Below are positions 3,938 through 11,519 of a stretch of DNA of 20,642 nt, piece after piece (position 1 is the stretch's first letter; every line of letters starts with the position of its first letter). A program made the position numbers and the translations under genes. The DNA lies in the IMG/VR virus record IMGVR_UViG_3300042945_001635, positions 1 through 20,642 of that record; one strand, given 5' to 3'. A model generated the notes under the pieces. The model searched no databases. It saw nothing but the letters and a program-made list of their open reading frames with translations, and had not been told where the DNA came from. Source of the DNA: a virus.

Positions 3938-5277
3938 TTTCTCTCCTTATTATTGACTCCAAAAGTATCTCTCAGCAATTTCATCGAAGTATAGGAATTA
4001 TTGACATTAAAATGGTGGCAAAGTTCCTTAATCATATATAGACCACTTGTTTCGGAATCATGTTCTCTCTTGTCTGTTTGTGAGACGGCAGGAAATAAAC
4101 ACTCAATAACATCCCCCGCTCTCAAATCTATATTTCCCGGAACCATTACATTTAAGGTTTGAGTAAAAAGAATATTATATCTCATTAAAGATTGAGATTG
4201 GTATAGTGATGGGTCGGCATTTTCGGATTTTGATACTTCTTTTTCTACGGTTCCGATATCTAAAATAGCGGTAATAATTCTAGAAGGAGCATCACCAAGA
4301 GATAAATCAGAACCCTCTGATATTTTAGGAAGTCTTAAATCTGTTCCGCCAAGATTTTCTGTTTTATTAGCATAGTCCTCCAACTTAAAAAGTCCCCTTT
4401 GAGGATCCGTAAATGTAAAGTCTAGAGGATTAAAAAATGTTCTTTGACTTGCATAGGTTCCAAGACGAAGTTTCTCAATTAAATTTTGATTTTTTTCGGT
4501 ATTATAATTCAGAATCTTAAACTCATTATTAACCTTTTCATTATTATCATCATAAGAAACGGTTGTTGGACTATAAACATAAGTTGCCTTTGGTTTTTGA
4601 GCGATTAGATTATCAATTGCACGAAACTGAAATCCATCACGAGTTTGATAAAATACAAATCCGGCAGTTGCATCTCCAGAAACCACAGGAACACCTTTAG
4701 ATGCCAACCAAATTAGTGTGGTAAATGGTTTTCTCATATTTCCAATAAAACCATACTTATTGGAAGTTTCATCAATTGTTCCGATACTATCAGTTTTTAG
4801 AACATCGGTTAAGATTTTACGAACTGACTCACTAATCTTCGATGATGTCGAATATTTTCTCATCACTCTTGAGGTTTCGTTCGTAATTGCCTCTCTTGAA
4901 ACTAGATTTAGAGTGAAACTTTCTTGTTGTGCCTCGGAAATTACATCCGTAATACTTGAAACATAAAGATATTTTTTTGGATTATTTGAGAAATCTAGTG
5001 ATTCTCTTCCGGGAACATTTCCGGCAACTTTCATCGAAAGTCTTTCACCACCACGAAGAGGAAGACCATTATAAATTGATTGCCTTTCTCCGTCTTGGTT
5101 CTTAAAGGATGTGATTGTTTCTCCGGTATTAACTACTTTGAGTCTGGCAGTAATTGTTGGAGAAAAAATATCCTCAAAATATTCAAGTGCAATCGTACCA
5201 TTTTTGATGTCAATCGTTCTTTTTTGGTCGTTTGACTCAAGAACTAGTTCTTCATATAGGGATTTACTAATTGACAT
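3934..5277 (-). CDS. Baseplate hub protein, gp27-like (447 aa)
   Basis: The N-terminus (residues 1-60: RTIDIKNGTIALEYFEDIFSP) and the C-terminal region (MVPGNIDLRAGDVIECLFPA, SGLYMIKELCHHF) resemble T4 gp27 and the related gpD-type hub proteins, which form the trimeric ring holding gp5 under the tail tube. T4 gp27 is 391 aa, so this version is slightly longer. Position is strong support: it lies between the tail hydrolase gene and the gp5-like gene, overlapping the first by TAATG and the second by ATGA, which implies translational coupling and matched production of hub partners. No transmembrane or enzymatic motif is seen. Confidence 0.7.
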   Translation of the reverse strand: MSISKSLYEELVLESNDQKRTIDIKNGTIALEYFEDIFSPTITARLKVVNTGETITSFKNQDGERQSIYNGLPLRGGERLSMKVAGNVPGRESLDFSNNPKKYLYVSSITDVISEAQQESFTLNLVSREAITNETSRVMRKYSTSSKISESVRKILTDVLKTDSIGTIDETSNKYGFIGNMRKPFTTLIWLASKGVPVVSGDATAGFVFYQTRDGFQFRAIDNLIAQKPKATYVYSPTTVSYDDNNEKVNNEFKILNYNTEKNQNLIEKLRLGTYASQRTFFNPLDFTFTDPQRGLFKLEDYANKTENLGGTDLRLPKISEGSDLSLGDAPSRIITAILDIGTVEKEVSKSENADPSLYQSQSLMRYNILFTQTLNVMVPGNIDLRAGDVIECLFPAVSQTDKREHDSETSGLYMIKELCHHFNVNNSYTSMKLLRDTFGVNNKERK

Positions 5278-7166
5278 TATAGGTAAGCGAGGTCGAGTAG
5301 AAGTTTATTACGCATAAAATTATTTAACAAGGCAAATTCACTTATTTGCGGAGACCCTCCACCAGAAGAACCTCGACCACCAGAATACATCATTTGCCGT
5401 GCAGGAGATGAAGGATTTTGAGAAATAATCACCGTTGGTCCGGTTCTCTCTGGTGCTAATGATTGAGTTATTTGTGGATTTTGGGGAGTTCCGGTTGGAG
5501 TTATTTGTGCCGGTGATGGGGATGGTGGTTGTTGTCTTGCTATAGATGGAGGAACTCCACCCTTTTCAATAGTCTTAATATAATTTGTAGGATCTAAAAG
5601 TCTACTTCCGGAATATAATTCAATATGTAAGTGTGTTTGATCTCCAAGATCTACCAATCTTCCTATTCTTTGCCCCGCAGATACCTTTTGTCCGGGTCTT
5701 ACTGATGGAGTCATATGTAAATATCTTACTGAATATCCATCATCCTGATCTATCACCATTCCACTATCATATTTTGTTCCACCAACATAATCTCTTGAAG
5801 AAACAACTCCACCACGAATTGCAACTACTGGTATTCTTGGGTCACTTCCTCGTTTCCAATTAGACTCTGTAATATCAATACCAAGGTGTTTTCTAGATCC
5901 TCCATCTCTAGAAGCTCCAAATTTTTGACTTTCCCCACCTTTAAATGAACCTTGGGGTAATGGTCTAAAAGATTGACCCATTCCTGGAGTTGCTTGTTGT
6001 TGAGATCTTGTTGTTCCAAAATTTGGAGTAGATCCAATGATATTTTGAGAATAGTTCCAATCCCACCCAAAATAATTATCTCCAGATTTTCTTAAAATCT
6101 GCCCTCTTCTATTTTTTTTAGAATAATTTGTAAAATCAGTTCTACCCTGAACAAATTCAACTGCGTTCTTTTGCAATGTTGGATTTGTTAAGTTAGCGGC
6201 AACACTTTTTATAGCACCAACACTCATATCAGATGCTTTTGCTGCAGACTCTGCATCTGTAATATTAATCCATTCTGGATTTGGTTTTCTATCCCCCCTT
6301 TTTCTTGGATAATCCCAAGTTGGTTGATATTGCCCCTCTGCTATAATCAATTCTCTTATGGTTTTTCCAGAATATGCACCAGATGCAAGTCTATTATAAA
6401 TTGACTGAGCCACATCTGCTCTTCCTTGAGGATCTCCGTCTTCTCTAGCAGCAACAGCAACTAAAGTCCAAAAATCTGAACTCCCCCCACTAACAGTTTC
6501 ACTACCACTATAAGGTGCCGATGTTTCATAGGCACCTTCATCAGTAATTCGAGTTCCAGTCGCCGGAGCATCCTCACCAGAAGCAATACCCTCGGTTAAT
6601 GGAGTCGTGAGCAATTTAATGGCATCCTCAAATCCAGTTCCCCAATTATCTACACTTAAATTTAGTTCATCAAAAGCAGTTTTAACTCTTCCAGAAGTAT
6701 CAAGAAAATCAAATGTCATTAGATTTGTTAAGGGCGCACCCAAAAGTCGTGTGAAATCTTTAAATATATCAGTGCTTTTTACAATAAAGTTTCCAAGTAT
6801 CTGACCCATCTGTTGAGTTCTGGCAATAAACTCCTTACCCATTGAAATCCAGGTGGGTAGATTATTAATTATCCATCCTGCGGTCAAATAACCAAGAAAT
6901 CCTACTAATCTTCCAAAAAATCCTTTGGCACTACCGGAAATTAACTGTGCAGGTCCACGAGGTCTTGTTACAAGATTAGATGCCTCAAGTTCATCCTCTC
7001 TTTGTTTTCTTCTTTCATTTTCTATTCTGCGACTTTGTAAGATTGTTTTATTTTGAAATATTTCTTTTCTAACTCTTGTTCTATTGAGTAAAATACTCTG
7101 TAACTTTTTTATTGTTTTTGTCGAACCTGTCGGAACTTTTGATTGAAGTGGTGATGAGATTGCCAT
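5277..7166 (-). CDS. Tail protein with SleB-like and M23 peptidase peptidoglycan hydrolase domains (629 aa)
   Basis: A basic N-terminal helical region (1-70) leads to a hydrophobic segment with FGR at 84-86 and GWIIN at 97-101. Residues 230-375 look like a SleB/cell-wall-hydrolase domain (VAVAAREDGDPQGRADVAQSIYNRL pattern, candidate catalytic Glu242; YFGWDWNY near the end). Residues 415-532 look like a LytM/M23 metallopeptidase: HLGID supplies His427 and Asp431, and HLHIE supplies His512 and His514, the usual zinc and catalytic set. A Pro/Gln/Ser-rich tail follows. The enzyme should cut peptidoglycan during tail penetration, replacing the lysozyme domain of T4 gp5. The gene sits between the tape-measure-like and gp27-like genes, one base after the former's stop, so the product is probably in the hub or tail lumen. 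Domain calls are confident; location is inferred. Confidence 0.8.
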   Translation of the reverse strand: MAISSPLQSKVPTGSTKTIKKLQSILLNRTRVRKEIFQNKTILQSRRIENERRKQREDELEASNLVTRPRGPAQLISGSAKGFFGRLVGFLGYLTAGWIINNLPTWISMGKEFIARTQQMGQILGNFIVKSTDIFKDFTRLLGAPLTNLMTFDFLDTSGRVKTAFDELNLSVDNWGTGFEDAIKLLTTPLTEGIASGEDAPATGTRITDEGAYETSAPYSGSETVSGGSSDFWTLVAVAAREDGDPQGRADVAQSIYNRLASGAYSGKTIRELIIAEGQYQPTWDYPRKRGDRKPNPEWINITDAESAAKASDMSVGAIKSVAANLTNPTLQKNAVEFVQGRTDFTNYSKKNRRGQILRKSGDNYFGWDWNYSQNIIGSTPNFGTTRSQQQATPGMGQSFRPLPQGSFKGGESQKFGASRDGGSRKHLGIDITESNWKRGSDPRIPVVAIRGGVVSSRDYVGGTKYDSGMVIDQDDGYSVRYLHMTPSVRPGQKVSAGQRIGRLVDLGDQTHLHIELYSGSRLLDPTNYIKTIEKGGVPPSIARQQPPSPSPAQITPTGTPQNPQITQSLAPERTGPTVIISQNPSSPARQMMYSGGRGSSGGGSPQISEFALLNNFMRNKLLLDLAYL

Positions 7167-7167
7167 A

Positions 7168-8898
7168 TTACATTACCACATTATAGTTTAATTGAGAATA
7201 AAGAACATAAAAATTATCAGGATTAGAAGAACTAATCAAAGGAGTATCGGTGCCATTTGTTGGTGCTTGTGAAATAGAGGATCGTTGATTATTAATTTGA
7301 CCTGATGGAATCATAATAACATTCGGAGATGGTTCTGGAAGTTCTCCTACATTTTGAGTGGGTTTTGGAAGTGGTTGAACCTGTGCCGAGGGTAGAGGTG
7401 CTGCCTGAGACATAGAAGGTTTTTCAGTCAACTTCATTTCAGTCCAATCATATCCTTTTGATTGTGCCCAGATTTTTGCCTGCTGTTGCTGCTCTACAGA
7501 CATATTGTTCCAGGCAGACTCAATTCTTCCTCTTGCAAATCCATTATTCCTATAATCCCACGCCATCTGAAACTGTTTAGTCATTTCAGGACTTGGTGGA
7601 GGAATTGCGGGTGTTTGTGGTTGTACTGCTGCGGGTGCTGGTGATGCCTCAGGTGTTTGTGCTACTAAGGTTGGAAGTATAGAGTTTTGTGGTTCAACTG
7701 TTGATGGTGAAATTTTTGCGGATGCTTCTACAGGCGCCATTATTGTTGGTGGTGGTTCTGTTGGTTTTTCTGCTGGTGATGTTGATGTTTTTCCAAAAAA
7801 TTTATCATACATATCCTTTCCAAATTCTGATCCTGGACCATAAGCGAGAGCACCACCAACAATACCAGTTCCAGGAATGGGAATTAAAGATGTTAAACCA
7901 CCTACTACAGTAGAAGTAATCATTCCAGTAGTTGCACCAGCAATCGCTCTTCCTGGGTCTTCTCCTTGTGCTATATCAAGTCCAGTTAATGCACTCCCCG
8001 CCAACAGGGGTCCTGCCAAACCTCTTATAAAGTTTCCTGCCCCACTCAACATACCCCCACCCCCAGGAGGTTTTACACCAGGTCCGGCAGGAGGTTTGTT
8101 TCCACCACCAAAAAGACCTCCTATAAGTGGAGCACTTTGAAGACCTTTTCTTATAAGATTTAAGGGCGCCAGGGCAAGTTTAAGTACAAGACCACCGATT
8201 TTTCCTGCAAGTCCGGTAATAGTCTTAATTATCAAATCAAATCCTATTTTAATTGCGGCAAAAGCCCCTACGGCATATCCAATATGTTTGAGAACATTAT
8301 CTTTGATTTCTTCTAATTTATTTTTATTTCCTTCTGCGTTTGCCTTAAGTGCCTCAATTCCTTGATTTGTCAACCATCCTGTAAATAATGTAACTAGAGC
8401 CTCTCCTATTCTTCCAAATATATTACCAACTTTCTGCTGCAGAGCCTGAACCGGTTTCGCCAGAGCATTTGTAATGTTTTGTTCTAGTTGAGATTCTTTT
8501 CCCAATCTAATATTTGTTTCGGCAAGTTTTCTTTCACTTTCTGCCTCTGCCGCTGCCTGTTGTTTCTCTACTACACTATCTTGCTGTATTAAATTAGAAA
8601 TAGATACAAGACCTTTGTTTAGAGTTGTTGTTTCTGTCCGTAAAGCATCTACCGTGCTTCTAAGTGCAGAAATCTCTTGAGTTTGTTGAATATTTTGAGT
8701 GGTTTGAATCTCTAGATTTCTTTCAACATTAACTAAACTTGCCTGAGGTTGTACTGCAAGAGCACCACCTCTTCCTCCTCCACCGCCACCGCCAGGAATA
8801 CCACCACCTCCACCGGCACCACCAGTTATGGCAGAACTAGAAACCGTTCTTGCCACAACATCTATAGTAGGTCCAATTGGAGATGATAGACTAGCCAT
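7168..8898 (-). CDS. Tape-measure-like tail protein (gp29 position, 576 aa)
   Basis: Layout: a Gly-rich stretch (26-45), a long predicted coiled coil (about 55-158, with heptad-like hydrophobics and many Gln/Glu), FGR at 161-163 and GWLTN at 174-178, then hydrophobic helices (about 205-255 and 300-370) and a Pro/Ala/Ser-rich low-complexity region (375-440). Coiled coil plus hydrophobic segments is typical of tail-length tape measures; T4 gp29 is 590 aa, close to this. It follows gp26 and the 57-aa ORF exactly where a tape measure follows tail chaperone genes in other long-tailed phages. The start at 8898 overlaps the 57-aa ORF by 8 bases. Direct similarity to gp29 cannot be confirmed here. 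Confidence 0.6.
   Translation of the reverse strand: MASLSSPIGPTIDVVARTVSSSAITGGAGGGGGIPGGGGGGGRGGALAVQPQASLVNVERNLEIQTTQNIQQTQEISALRSTVDALRTETTTLNKGLVSISNLIQQDSVVEKQQAAAEAESERKLAETNIRLGKESQLEQNITNALAKPVQALQQKVGNIFGRIGEALVTLFTGWLTNQGIEALKANAEGNKNKLEEIKDNVLKHIGYAVGAFAAIKIGFDLIIKTITGLAGKIGGLVLKLALAPLNLIRKGLQSAPLIGGLFGGGNKPPAGPGVKPPGGGGMLSGAGNFIRGLAGPLLAGSALTGLDIAQGEDPGRAIAGATTGMITSTVVGGLTSLIPIPGTGIVGGALAYGPGSEFGKDMYDKFFGKTSTSPAEKPTEPPPTIMAPVEASAKISPSTVEPQNSILPTLVAQTPEASPAPAAVQPQTPAIPPPSPEMTKQFQMAWDYRNNGFARGRIESAWNNMSVEQQQQAKIWAQSKGYDWTEMKLTEKPSMSQAAPLPSAQVQPLPKPTQNVGELPEPSPNVIMIPSGQINNQRSSISQAPTNGTDTPLISSSNPDNFYVLYSQLNYNVVM
8764..8823 (-). repeat. Poly-glycine low-complexity coding tract
   Basis: The codons for residues 26-45 of the tape-measure-like protein encode sixteen glycines with only Ala, Ile, Pro and Arg interrupting. 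The plus strand reads as repeated CCACC/CCGCC units. It is probably a flexible linker before the coiled coil and is prone to slippage and length variation. Confidence 0.75.
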
Positions 8899-9064
8899 TC
8901 TGTTGGTTCTTTAGATTTTGCTCTTCAATATATTGAGAAAGAAGAGTGATATAAACTTCCTTTTCCCAAGGAACCATATTTTCTAACTCTGTTAATGAGT
9001 ATTTATGATGCTGCATTAACTGAAATGTAGTTCTGTAGTATGACTCTAACGATGTATGAGCCAT
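8891..9064 (-). CDS. 57-aa tail-assembly chaperone-like ORF, probable -1 frameshift extension of gp26
   Basis: The 57-aa product begins MAHTSLESYYRTTFQLMQHH and ends EEQNLKNQQNG. It is acidic, rich in Gln/Glu/Tyr and predicted helical. Its ATG lies two bases after the gp26 stop and in the -1 frame, and that frame is open back through a T TTT TTC heptamer at 9073-9079. A ribosome slipping there would make a fusion of gp26 residues 1-238, then Arg-Leu-Gly, then this 57-aa sequence: 298 aa in all. This is the arrangement of lambda G and G-T chaperones, which act just before the tape measure, as here. The ORF could also be made from its own ATG, but AGGA abuts that ATG with no spacing, a poor initiation geometry. 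Its position also recalls T4 gp51, though it is far shorter. Confidence 0.75.
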   Translation of the reverse strand: MAHTSLESYYRTTFQLMQHHKYSLTELENMVPWEKEVYITLLSQYIEEQNLKNQQNG

Positions 9065-9066
9065 TC

Positions 9067-9786
9067 CTAGGCGAAAAAAGATGTTAGTCCCTCCAATACG
9101 ACTTCACTTTCCACATTAGTATTTGGATTCTTTACCTTAATAGTATAAGATAGTTTAGGCATCGTCTCAAAAAACTTTTCAATTTCTTTAAACTGATTGG
9201 TGGTAAGTTGCTCTAGAAACTCATTCAGTTCTTTTTTAGTCGTATCAGAAGCATTCCAAGATTCTTCTTCACTATAAATCTGCTCCACACAGGCAGAAAT
9301 CATCTCAAAGGTATCATCCACACTCACAGATTCATTATTATTAAAGTTGTTCTTAATGAACTCCTGCATCGATGGATATTTCATACGAAGAGTCAGAACA
9401 TCATCAAGTTTAATATCTTTTGAATGTTCTTCACTTACATTTACTTTAATTTCATCTAGATTAATTGAAACCGGAACTTGCGTGGTTCCGTCATCAGGAC
9501 AGGTAATTAGAACATCCACTGATTCTCCAACAGACTTTCCACGAACATTCAGAAACAAATATTCAATATCAAAAGTTGATAGTTGTTCTACCTTGATTCC
9601 TTTTGTGAGAATACAATTTGAAATTACGGTTTTTACCGCTTGTGCAATTTGTTTCGTATCTTCACTTTCCATCGCAATAATTAAAACCTTTTCTTCTTTT
9701 ACGAGAAAGGGTCTATATTTAATTTCTTTTTTAATAGATGGTATTTCTAAACTATATGTTGGTACTGCAATTTTTGGTAAAGGCAT
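9067..9786 (-). CDS. 26: Baseplate hub / tail assembly protein gp26-like (T4_baseplate family, 239 aa)
   Basis: The N-terminus (PKIAVPTYSLEIPSIKKEIKYRPFLVKEEKVLIIAMES) is characteristic of the T4 gp26 family: a short beta N-terminus followed by an acidic, helical body. T4 gp26 is 208 aa and participates in hub assembly; in other long-tailed phages the gene at this position is a tape-measure chaperone, which fits the frameshift signal at this gene's 3' end. A GGAG ribosome site precedes the ATG at 9786, and a late-type motif (ACTAAATATTTTT) lies at 9810-9822. The C-terminal residues are SFFA; the two Phe codons form the slippery site. Confidence 0.8.
   Translation of the reverse strand: MPLPKIAVPTYSLEIPSIKKEIKYRPFLVKEEKVLIIAMESEDTKQIAQAVKTVISNCILTKGIKVEQLSTFDIEYLFLNVRGKSVGESVDVLITCPDDGTTQVPVSINLDEIKVNVSEEHSKDIKLDDVLTLRMKYPSMQEFIKNNFNNNESVSVDDTFEMISACVEQIYSEEESWNASDTTKKELNEFLEQLTTNQFKEIEKFFETMPKLSYTIKVKNPNTNVESEVVLEGLTSFFA
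9073..9094 (-). promoter_or_regulatory. Probable programmed -1 ribosomal frameshift signal at the gp26 3' end
   Basis: On the minus strand the gp26 frame reads TCT TTT TTC GCC TAG. The heptamer T TTT TTC (9079 to 9073) is in the phase required for X XXY YYZ slippage. Nine bases upstream is GGAGGG (9094 to 9089), an internal Shine-Dalgarno sequence placed like the stimulator of the E. coli dnaX frameshift. After the slip the frame reads CGC CTA GGA ATG and continues for the whole 57-aa ORF. No clear downstream stem is visible by eye. Confidence 0.7.
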
Positions 9787-9822: not shown

Positions 9823-10632
9823 TTAGTTATTTAAGATCGTAGGAAAAACACTTCCTTGATTGGGAATTGTACCTCTTACCCCACTTTCATTCCCAAGAGA
9901 TTGACCAGTTCTATAAACAACTCTTTGATTATTGCTTTGATTATTGTTTTGATTATTATTATTGTTTTGATTATTATTATTATCACCAATAACTTCATTC
10001 AAACTTAATGATCTACCTGCAATATAACGATCATACTCAAAATTTACCGACATCTTGAGAATTTCTGACGAATTATAACTTACCGGAATTGATGACATTG
10101 CCGATGGAAATAATCCAATAAAAGCATATTCTATTTCTTTATTATAATCTCTGTCAAACTTTGTAATTGTAGTTCTATCGGATTTATAATATTCTGGATA
10201 TTGCATTCTAGAAATATAGTCCTTACGATTCTGCCCTATCGGAGCAAGATTACTTCCAACTGGATTATTAGATCCACTTGCGATAAACTCCATCCAACTT
10301 TCCATAAATTTAAGAGCATTATAATTGCTATCCACATAAAACTCAAGCGCAATTGCAGAATATTGTCTTGTGTGTGCGAACTTTTCCGTTATACCCATAA
10401 AGTTCCCACTAATCTCAGCAGTTGCCAAAGAAGTAGTTGGAAGAGATGCATTAAAACAAAGTAGTCCAGCATCTTCTGCAATAAATCTTTGACTAATTCC
10501 TTTACGAGAAAGATATGCCATTAGAGGACCACCAAGAGGTCCTACGCCACCAAATCTTACTTCATAGTGAGAAGTTTGTGCGAGATTCGTAAAGAGTGGT
10601 TTAAAGTCGGATATTCTGCGGATACTAGGCAC
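9823..10632 (-). CDS. Tail tube-like protein (gp19/gp54 family candidate, 269 aa)
   Basis: The N-terminus (ISDFKPLFTNLAQTSHYEVRFGG) and the central features (FNASLPTTSLATAEISGNF, REYSAIALEFYVDS-like strand, FMESWMEFIASG) resemble the tail-tube fold shared by T4 gp19 and gp54. A tube or tube-initiator role is therefore likely. The start codon is GTG at 10632 with AAAAGG upstream; no better ATG is in frame at the N-terminus. Residues 217-236 are a nearly pure Asn/Gln tract, after which come 33 residues ending TILNN. The gene heads the leftward tail module, with a late-type motif at 10667-10674. Which of gp19, gp54 or an additional tube paralogue it is cannot be settled here. Confidence 0.6.
   Translation of the reverse strand: MPSIRRISDFKPLFTNLAQTSHYEVRFGGVGPLGGPLMAYLSRKGISQRFIAEDAGLLCFNASLPTTSLATAEISGNFMGITEKFAHTRQYSAIALEFYVDSNYNALKFMESWMEFIASGSNNPVGSNLAPIGQNRKDYISRMQYPEYYKSDRTTITKFDRDYNKEIEYAFIGLFPSAMSSIPVSYNSSEILKMSVNFEYDRYIAGRSLSLNEVIGDNNNNQNNNNNQNNNQSNNQRVVYRTGQSLGNESGVRGTIPNQGSVFPTILNN
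9925..9984 (-). repeat. Asn/Gln-coding trinucleotide-like low-complexity tract
   Basis: Sixty bases encode a run of asparagines interrupted by Gln, one Asp and one Ser near the C-terminus of the tail-tube-like protein. The DNA is built of AAT/AAC and CAA codons (plus strand ATT and TTG). Such tracts expand and shrink easily; the flanking protein is not low-complexity. Confidence 0.8.
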
Positions 10633-10787: not shown

Positions 10788-11519
10788 ATGAACTATCTAA
10801 AGGTTTATTGCAACCTCATCAGGAAAGCAGAGAATAGGATTCCTCCTGAAGGTTATACGGAAAAACACCATACATTTCCTAAAAGTATTTTTGGGAATAA
10901 TACTAGAGTTGTAGTGCTTACTGCAAGAGAGCATTATATTGCCCATACATTATTAGCAAAAATTTGCATTAAAAAATATGGGTTATATCATAAAAATACT
11001 CAAAAAATGTTATGCGCTATCATTAATATAAAAGGTAAAACTAATAGGTATTATAACTCTTACTTATATGAATATGCAAGAAAAAAAAGAAATGAAAGTA
11101 TAAAAGGTGAGAATCATTGGAATTATGGAAAACCTAGAACACAAGAAGTTAAAGACAAAATAAGTTTAAAAAATAAAGGAAACCCATCTCCAGACCCAAA
11201 AGGTGATAAATTAAAAGAATATAAAGAATTATATGGAAATTTTTGGACTGGAAAAAACCATACGGAAGAATATAAAAAATTAAAGTCTATAGATAGATTA
11301 AATTATTATCAAACAGAACGAGGAAAAAAACAAAGAGAAGAAATATCAAAAACTTTAAAAGAAAAAGGTATAAGACCTCCAGATTATGCATTAGGATCAT
11401 CAAAAGGAACAAAATGGTGGAATAATGGAAAAATTAATAAAAGATCTATTGAAAGTCCGGGAGAAGATTTTATATCTGGAAGAATAAAGGGAAAATGGAA
11501 GTGGAATAAAACTAAATGA
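10788..11519 (+). CDS. HNH homing endonuclease-like protein with NUMOD-type DNA-binding repeats (243 aa)
   Basis: The N-terminus carries an HNH nuclease pattern: EKHHTFPKSIFG (His27, His28), then VVVLTAREHYIAHTLL (His49, His53). Downstream are basic segments of the NUMOD kind (GENHWNYGKPRTQEVKDKIS, about 108-126) and a C-terminal KWWNNGKINKRS-ESPGEDFISGR motif (about 209-232) frequent in phage HNH proteins. It probably nicks or cuts DNA at a site in related phages and spreads itself there. Codons are notably A-rich (many AAA) compared with the neighbours, which suggests separate acquisition. There is no ribosome site before the ATG, only a run of A. Its stop overlaps the gp4 start (ATGA). It is free-standing; I see no intron or interrupted gene. 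Confidence 0.8.
   Translation: MNYLKVYCNLIRKAENRIPPEGYTEKHHTFPKSIFGNNTRVVVLTAREHYIAHTLLAKICIKKYGLYHKNTQKMLCAIINIKGKTNRYYNSYLYEYARKKRNESIKGENHWNYGKPRTQEVKDKISLKNKGNPSPDPKGDKLKEYKELYGNFWTGKNHTEEYKKLKSIDRLNYYQTERGKKQREEISKTLKEKGIRPPDYALGSSKGTKWWNNGKINKRSIESPGEDFISGRIKGKWKWNKTK

Follow-up and report, generated by a model that had tools for sequence, protein, structure and literature searches.

The stretch of viral DNA considered here, hereafter the window, comes from a T4-like cyanophage, comprises all 20,642 nucleotides (nt) at positions 1 to 20,642 of the IMG/VR virus record IMGVR_UViG_3300042945_001635, and carries on its minus strand gp26, which probably encodes a tail assembly chaperone (TAC), followed by gp51, a 57-amino-acid (aa) open reading frame (ORF) in the -1 frame (Table 1). 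On that strand the junction codons run TTG GAG GGA CTA ACA TCT TTT TTC GCC TAG, then GA ATG GCT CAT. An initial annotation, made from the letters alone, had proposed that a programmed -1 frameshift joins gp26, as the G part of a lambda-like chaperone pair, to the small ORF as its T part, and the particulars on which it drew are borne out by the sequence. The heptamer T TTT TTC is correctly framed for slippage by -1, its A-site codon lying two codons ahead of the gp26 stop; GGAGGG stands 9 nt 5′ of the heptamer and 24 nt ahead of the gp51 ATG, which itself lies 2 nt past the gp26 stop; and the -1 frame is free of stops between heptamer and ATG and open on to the gp51 stop, so that translation across the shift would give the 298-aa product that had been claimed.

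Table 1. Features of the gp26-gp51 junction and its neighbours, in coordinates of the window
Feature	Position	Strand	Database matches or basis
gp26, probable short tail assembly chaperone (TAC-N, lambda gpG counterpart), 239 aa	9067..9786	-	PF12322 E 9.1e-75; phrog_150 E 3.2e-82
GGAGG, putative Shine-Dalgarno-like frameshift stimulator, 10 nt 5′ of heptamer	9090..9094	-	
T TTT TTC slippery heptamer	9073..9079	-	
TAG, gp26 stop (0 frame), two codons past heptamer A-site codon	9067..9069	-	
Predicted stimulatory hairpin: 7-bp stem, 11-nt loop, begins 8 nt past heptamer	9040..9064	-	
gp51 ORF, 57 aa, probable C-terminal (T) domain in -1 frame	8891..9064	-	phrog_634 E 1.2e-25
Probable gp26-gp51 frameshift product, 298 aa (TAC-NC, lambda gpGT counterpart)	8891..9786	-	
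Tail tube protein (lambda gpV counterpart), upstream of gp26	9823..10632	-	PF23849 E 2.6e-17; phrog_45 E 7.2e-40
Next large gene, candidate tape measure, 8-nt overlap with gp51 end	7168..8898	-	Gene order only

Slippery heptamers as a class are common in this DNA. Across the 24 listed gene-like ORFs of the window (6,148 codons), 51 heptamers of the form X XXY YYZ occur in phase, among which T TTT TTC is unique and T TTT TTA accounts for two others. Because the motif class is so frequent, the weight of the proposal must come from the position of this heptamer, the Shine-Dalgarno (SD)-like element before it, the hairpin after it, and the conservation of all of these among relatives.

Conservation was assessed in 215 compiled loci, the window included, in 212 of which the gp26-like ORF ends inside the locus. 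The contig sets consisted of the best 80 of 185 relatives and the best 80 of at least 600, and are therefore tilted toward near relatives of the window. Once the loci whose best match was to the SJ2, VAP7, K448, or IME-SM1 query had been set aside, S13 and Mendera added, and identical 90-nt junctions merged, 132 distinct junctions were counted (113 from IMG/VR, 18 from named isolates, and the window), including one (L026) whose contig ends 13 codons past the shift. These 132 junctions carry a T-run heptamer, namely TTTTTTC in 123, TTTTTTT in 8, and TTTTTTG in 1, and its A-site codon lies two codons before the gp26 stop in 121. Judged by name or isolation host, the carriers include phages of cyanobacteria, Pelagibacter, Methylophilales, Ochrobactrum, Sinorhizobium, and Rhizobium, as well as of Caulobacter, Vibrio, Cronobacter, and Stenotrophomonas. 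For three loci (L139, L122, and L186) a search up to 33 nt from the called gp26 stop finds no heptamer; in L122 and L186 it is found further on, beyond an upstream frame break, leaving L139 as the sole locus without one outside the groups set aside. L139, an IMG/VR contig, is missing approximately the last 40 codons of gp26, heptamer included, with the gp51 start intact, the result of either a deletion or an assembly error. With that exception, none of the loci examined shows the arrangement at odds with the proposal, in which the small ORF stands apart and neither heptamer nor overlap is present.

The SD-like element is similarly fixed in its spacing. At a distance of exactly 10 nt ahead of the heptamer, GGAGG is present in 81 of the 132 junctions, compared with 2 of 2,371 for the control positions elsewhere in gp26, and GAGG occurs at the same distance in 27 further junctions. 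Published SD-like stimulators of -1 frameshifting lie 9-14 nt upstream (PMC5009743), a range that includes the 10-nt spacing in the window. The Glu codon that forms the site is GAG in 124 of 137 cases, whereas seven other conserved Glu columns have GAG in 197 of 988 (Fisher p about 1e-60, uncorrected for relatedness). At the slip site itself the second Phe codon is TTC in 134 of 145 sequences, and the first codon of another conserved Phe-Phe pair (columns 211-212) is TTC in 91 of 146. This analysis of codon choice covered 146 of 167 sequences, picked for carrying the heptamer, and the first Phe codon of the slip site was thus fixed by selection.

Downstream, the longest stem begins 4-9 nt past the heptamer in 114 of the 132 junctions. 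Sliding-window folding, which sampled 60 of the 132, gave mean z scores of -2.3 to -3.4 relative to shuffles for 40-nt segments starting 4-8 nt past the heptamer (59 of the 60 sampled junctions), and of -0.6 to 0.4 for segments farther away, except for values of about -1 at +100 and +120. Folds of 60 nt had a mean z of -2.0 over 41 entries, made up of 40 sampled junctions, the window among them, and the window entered once more on its own. Since the hairpin overlaps the gp51 coding sequence, synonymous codons were randomized as the null, and on this measure the mean z is -3.46 (n = 131), with 90% of values below -1.5 and a mean of 0.06 for a control placed 60 nt further on. The downstream hairpin is stronger than coding explains, as would be the case under selection. 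Pair counts were drawn from 82 representatives picked by protein pattern and a mismatch limit, of which 66 were used; the 16 more distant ones, whose stems were judged to lie in other registers, were dropped. Pairing holds in 87.9% of the stem cells of these 66 collinear sequences, one stem pair changes in compensatory fashion (U-A in 44, G-C in 15, unpaired in 7), and the covariation score of the stem is above that of all 500 shuffles. Other, longer stems occupy the same place in S-PM2, MC09, and L192. Relatives also show another, weaker tendency to fold (mean z about -1.0) inside gp51, approximately 100-160 nt past the heptamer.

Not every junction offers gp51 a start codon. When the -1 frame is read from the stop that precedes the shift as far as 12 codons beyond it, 18 of the 132 junctions contain no ATG, GTG, or TTG, and one further junction contains a start codon at codons 8-12 only. 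The gp51 domain is nevertheless intact in these 19, which include S-RIM2, ACG-2014a, Mosig, Melnitz, and S13, and the residues that precede any possible gp51 start remain alike. For gp51 domains that lack a start codon, frameshifting would be the simplest route to translation.

Homology to T4-type proteins provides an additional line of evidence. In pairwise alignments, residues 14-254 of RB49 gp51 match residues 23-298 of the fusion (E 1.5e-10) and residues 64-246 of T4 gp51 match residues 76-285 (E 1.3e-4), while T4 gp26 aligns with the fusion at E 4.4e-11 and RB49 gp51 with RB49 gp26 at E 1.7e-13. The gp51 proteins are 249 aa long in T4 and 256 aa in RB49; in T4, RB49, and Aes508, gp26 and gp51 are separate genes on opposite strands, and in the alignment T4-type gp26 stops a few residues beyond the point of the shift. 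The match to RB49 gp51 covers almost all of the fusion, so that the fused form corresponds to the separate full-length gp51 of RB49 and T4, and T4-type phages encode the short and long chaperone forms as separate genes.

The predicted structure of gp26 bears a modest likeness to the fold of the tail assembly chaperone of HK97. In its AlphaFold 2 (AF2) model (mean predicted local distance difference test score, pLDDT, 85.1), the N-terminal domain matched the HK97 protein 2ob9 by VIA-align against the PDB at Z 7.9 (root-mean-square deviation 3.6, 84 residues), a value tied by 3fgx and followed by 3klu at 7.2 and the remaining PDB matches at 5.0 and below. Foldseek against predicted viral structures returned 66 gp26 matches at E <= 0.001, of which the named ones are mostly gp26-like baseplate hub proteins, together with larger uncharacterized proteins. 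A profile of gp26 searched against PDB sequences gave weak, seemingly unrelated matches only, the best at E 0.02.

These observations are best accounted for if gp26 is a tail assembly chaperone to which a minor -1 ribosomal slip, directed by the three-part signal, adds the gp51 domain, a reading to which we assign a probability of roughly 0.9. Its foundations at the level of sequence are the signal, the conservation of that signal, the lack of a start codon in a subset of junctions, and the fact that the fusion is homologous to the gp51 proteins of RB49 and T4; from these we infer the slippage itself, its rate, and its role in assembly. The hairpin and the missing start codons are lines of evidence that the initial annotation did not have before it. 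Most ribosomes would halt at the TAG and release the 239-aa short form, while a minority would move back by one base at T TTT TTC and continue into the 298-aa form with its gp51 domain, helped by the pairing of the upstream GGAGG with 16S rRNA and by the hairpin shortly downstream. By analogy with lambda G/GT, the tape measure protein would then be bound by many short copies and few long ones, and tail tube subunits would be brought in by the gp51 domain. For lambda itself, binding to the tape measure is described for both G and GT, and the tail tube protein is the partner of the T part (PMC5009743).

Several results weigh against this reading. The SD-like motif was not found in 13 of the 132 junctions. 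Two-sided change is confined to one stem pair, the number of pairs so changed and the number of pair types are reached by 494 and 492 of 500 shuffles, respectively, and sliding the stem by -2 yields 17 two-sided cells versus 15. The hairpin of the window is itself weaker than average, with a z of -2.25 under the synonymous null and of -0.9 to -1.1 when 60 nt are compared with their dinucleotide shuffles. Structurally, a Z of 7.9 is in the range where VIA-align warns of a mere common arrangement, and Foldseek against the PDB found no gp26 match at E <= 0.001, the HK97 chaperone scoring E 1.3-1.9. There is no T-run heptamer in IME-SM1, which has five T, in VAP7, in SJ2 and its relatives, or in K448. 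Finally, in 110 of the 132 junctions an ATG occurs by the seventh codon after the shift, and its place in the window makes reinitiation, and a separate gp51 product as well, possible.

That ATG, along with the separate annotation of gp51 in GenBank records, is what would be expected were gp51 an independent 57-aa protein, made by termination-reinitiation at the ATG or by ordinary initiation from the GGAGG. A spacing of 24 nt from SD to ATG is, however, outside the usual range for initiation, and the GGAGG sits at the distance of a -1 stimulator instead. Neither heptamer nor hairpin is required for reinitiation, the ATG falls within the 5′ arm of the stem, so that its conservation is otherwise explained, and a full-length fused homologue is known in RB49 gp51. 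The 19 junctions without a usable nearby start, in which the residues before any possible start are nonetheless alike, lead us to reject an independent gene as the sole explanation, an additional product in the window being possible; overall, we give this account a small chance of being correct. Fusion by slippage of RNA polymerase on the T run, rather than of the ribosome, would draw on the seven or more T in a few relatives (the eight TTTTTTT junctions, and L186) and on the single T by which IME-SM1 is shorter than Mendera. Yet 123 of the 132 junctions have six T and then C, a run shorter than those on which polymerase usually slips, and codon phase, SD-like element, and hairpin all suit ribosomal slippage; transcriptional slippage is accordingly unlikely, its prospects very slight. 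Chance, combined with conserved coding of Leu-Glu-Gly-Leu-x-Ser-Phe-Phe, could be entertained given how frequent in-phase slippery heptamers are in this AT-rich window, but it is ruled out for practical purposes by a Glu codon choice opposite to that of the rest of gp26, by the Phe codons of the site compared with the other Phe-Phe pair, by the spacing, by a hairpin exceeding synonymous randomization, and by the loss of start codons.

The ribosomal frameshift may take a reduced form in the relatives that lack the T-run heptamer (gp26 3′ ends L102, L197-L214, L099, and L100). Their slip-site sequences are ATT TTC ATY TAA in Salmonella phage SJ2 and relatives, GTT TTT in VAP7, and CTT TTC in Vibrio phage K448, which is unclassified in its record. 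The gp51-like domain is again in the -1 frame in Ackermannviridae, as it is in K448, and most SJ2-like junctions have no ATG close by. At the SJ2, VAP7, and K448 sites only the Phe tRNA would be able to re-pair well, suggestive of a reduced slip site through which Ackermannviridae may reach the long chaperone without a T-run heptamer. A site of this kind recalls the T7 gene 10 type. Stenotrophomonas phage IME-SM1 (L098) is a separate case, having five T where its near relative Mendera (L218) has six; this would put its gp51 domain beyond the reach of a -1 slip, by either a sequencing error or a mutation.

The distribution of the two arrangements bears on their history. In a small tree, T4-type gp26 and gp51 cluster together (0.964), and under midpoint rooting the Straboviridae R11Z and S13 sit with the frameshifting phages, Mendera having no firm place in it (0.085). 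The simplest reading of these relationships is that gene duplication replaced the frameshift in T4-type phages. We further lean, with some reserve, toward the three-part dnaX-like signal as the ancestral route to the long tail chaperone across T4-like phages, spanning Kyanoviridae, Pelagibacter, rhizobial, and Caulobacter phages and, within Straboviridae, Vibrio R11Z and Cronobacter S13. The suggested order of events draws on a single small tree, rooted at its midpoint, and on the occurrence of the frameshift elsewhere in the Straboviridae; in several of the non-cyanophage members, the heptamer alone is clear, not all three parts of the signal.

Frameshifted tail chaperones are classical, and the present case can be placed among known systems. 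The lambda G/G-T pair likewise consists of a short form and a minor frameshifted long form encoded beside the tail tube gene; its slippery heptamer is G GGA AAG, in contrast to T TTT TTC here, where gp26 is 239 aa long and SD-like and hairpin elements are present. T4 gp26 and gp51 are homologous to the cyanophage fusion by the pairwise alignments above, but are two genes on opposite strands as opposed to one frameshifted gene. Vladimirov et al. in 2022 (Virology 566:9-15) reportedly identified the T4 proteins as hub assembly chaperones. Escherichia coli dnaX has a poly-A heptamer and a shifted form that is not the longer one, whereas the run here is poly-T and the shifted form is the longer. 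Shared with dnaX are the SD-like element, the heptamer built on a run of one base, and the downstream stem-loop (PMC5009743). In the Vandenendeviridae and Andersonviridae, too, a -1 frameshift leads from TAC-N into an under-annotated ORF before the tape measure gene, with the difference that the motif there is GTTTTT, short of a full heptamer, and that section 3.8.3 of the description mentions no SD-like or hairpin element (PMC12846349).

Parts of this picture have been anticipated. Published accounts describe the G-T frameshift as widely conserved "except T4" (PMC5009743), poly-T slip signals as known in TAC-N genes of T4-like phages (PMC12846349), and some T4-like phages as having separate short and long chaperone genes (PMC10885494), and two of these papers cite the chaperone identity of the T4-like genes as published in 2022 (PMC12846349; PMC10885494). 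The core frameshift in T4-like phages may therefore already be in print. No description of the SD-heptamer-hairpin signal in cyanophages was found among titles and abstract openings, the study of Vladimirov et al. (2022) being considered through the papers that cite it.

The order of tail tube gene, gp26, gp51, and large gene resembles that of lambda-like tails. A large gene does directly follow gp51, as the initial annotation had it; the tape measure role given to it is suggested by gene order only, Pfam and PHROGs having returned weak matches without useful function. In HTVC008M and Cr30, one small ORF separates gp51 from a following gene that is annotated as tape measure. Beyond the candidate tape measure, positions 5277-7166 (minus strand) encode a protein of 629 aa that has an M23 peptidase domain as well as a sub-cut-off Pfam match to a cell wall hydrolase. 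The tail tube protein contains an Asn/Gln-rich low-complexity stretch in its C-terminal part (approximately 9920-9985, minus strand), and beside its gene, at 10788-11519 on the plus strand, lies a homing endonuclease gene (NUMOD3 PF07460, phrog_655).

The gp51 ORF had been described as too short for many gene finders to call. It is already named gp51 in many records and annotated as a separate gene in, for instance, P-SSM2 and S-PM2; elsewhere it is truncated or missing, as in the ACG-2014a record, where 32 codons including the stop are annotated. Among 60 rows sampled down the match ranking, 12 have no annotated feature for gp51, 11 of the 12 being cyanophages, and S13 has none at the gp51 position. 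The matches to gp51 also include one in Campylobacter. Truncation or omission of gp51 is to be expected where the ORF cannot supply its own start codon.

Phages of the Kyanoviridae are very abundant in the sea, and the records compared here treat gp26 and gp51 as two hub genes, with gp51 truncated or unannotated in some of the cases where it lacks a start codon; a single recoded gene would explain both. If this is true, the hub "chaperones" of T4 would be tied to the general machinery of tail length. The phages compared here also offer a natural set of cases in which to study how programmed frameshifts arise, persist, or give way to duplicated genes.

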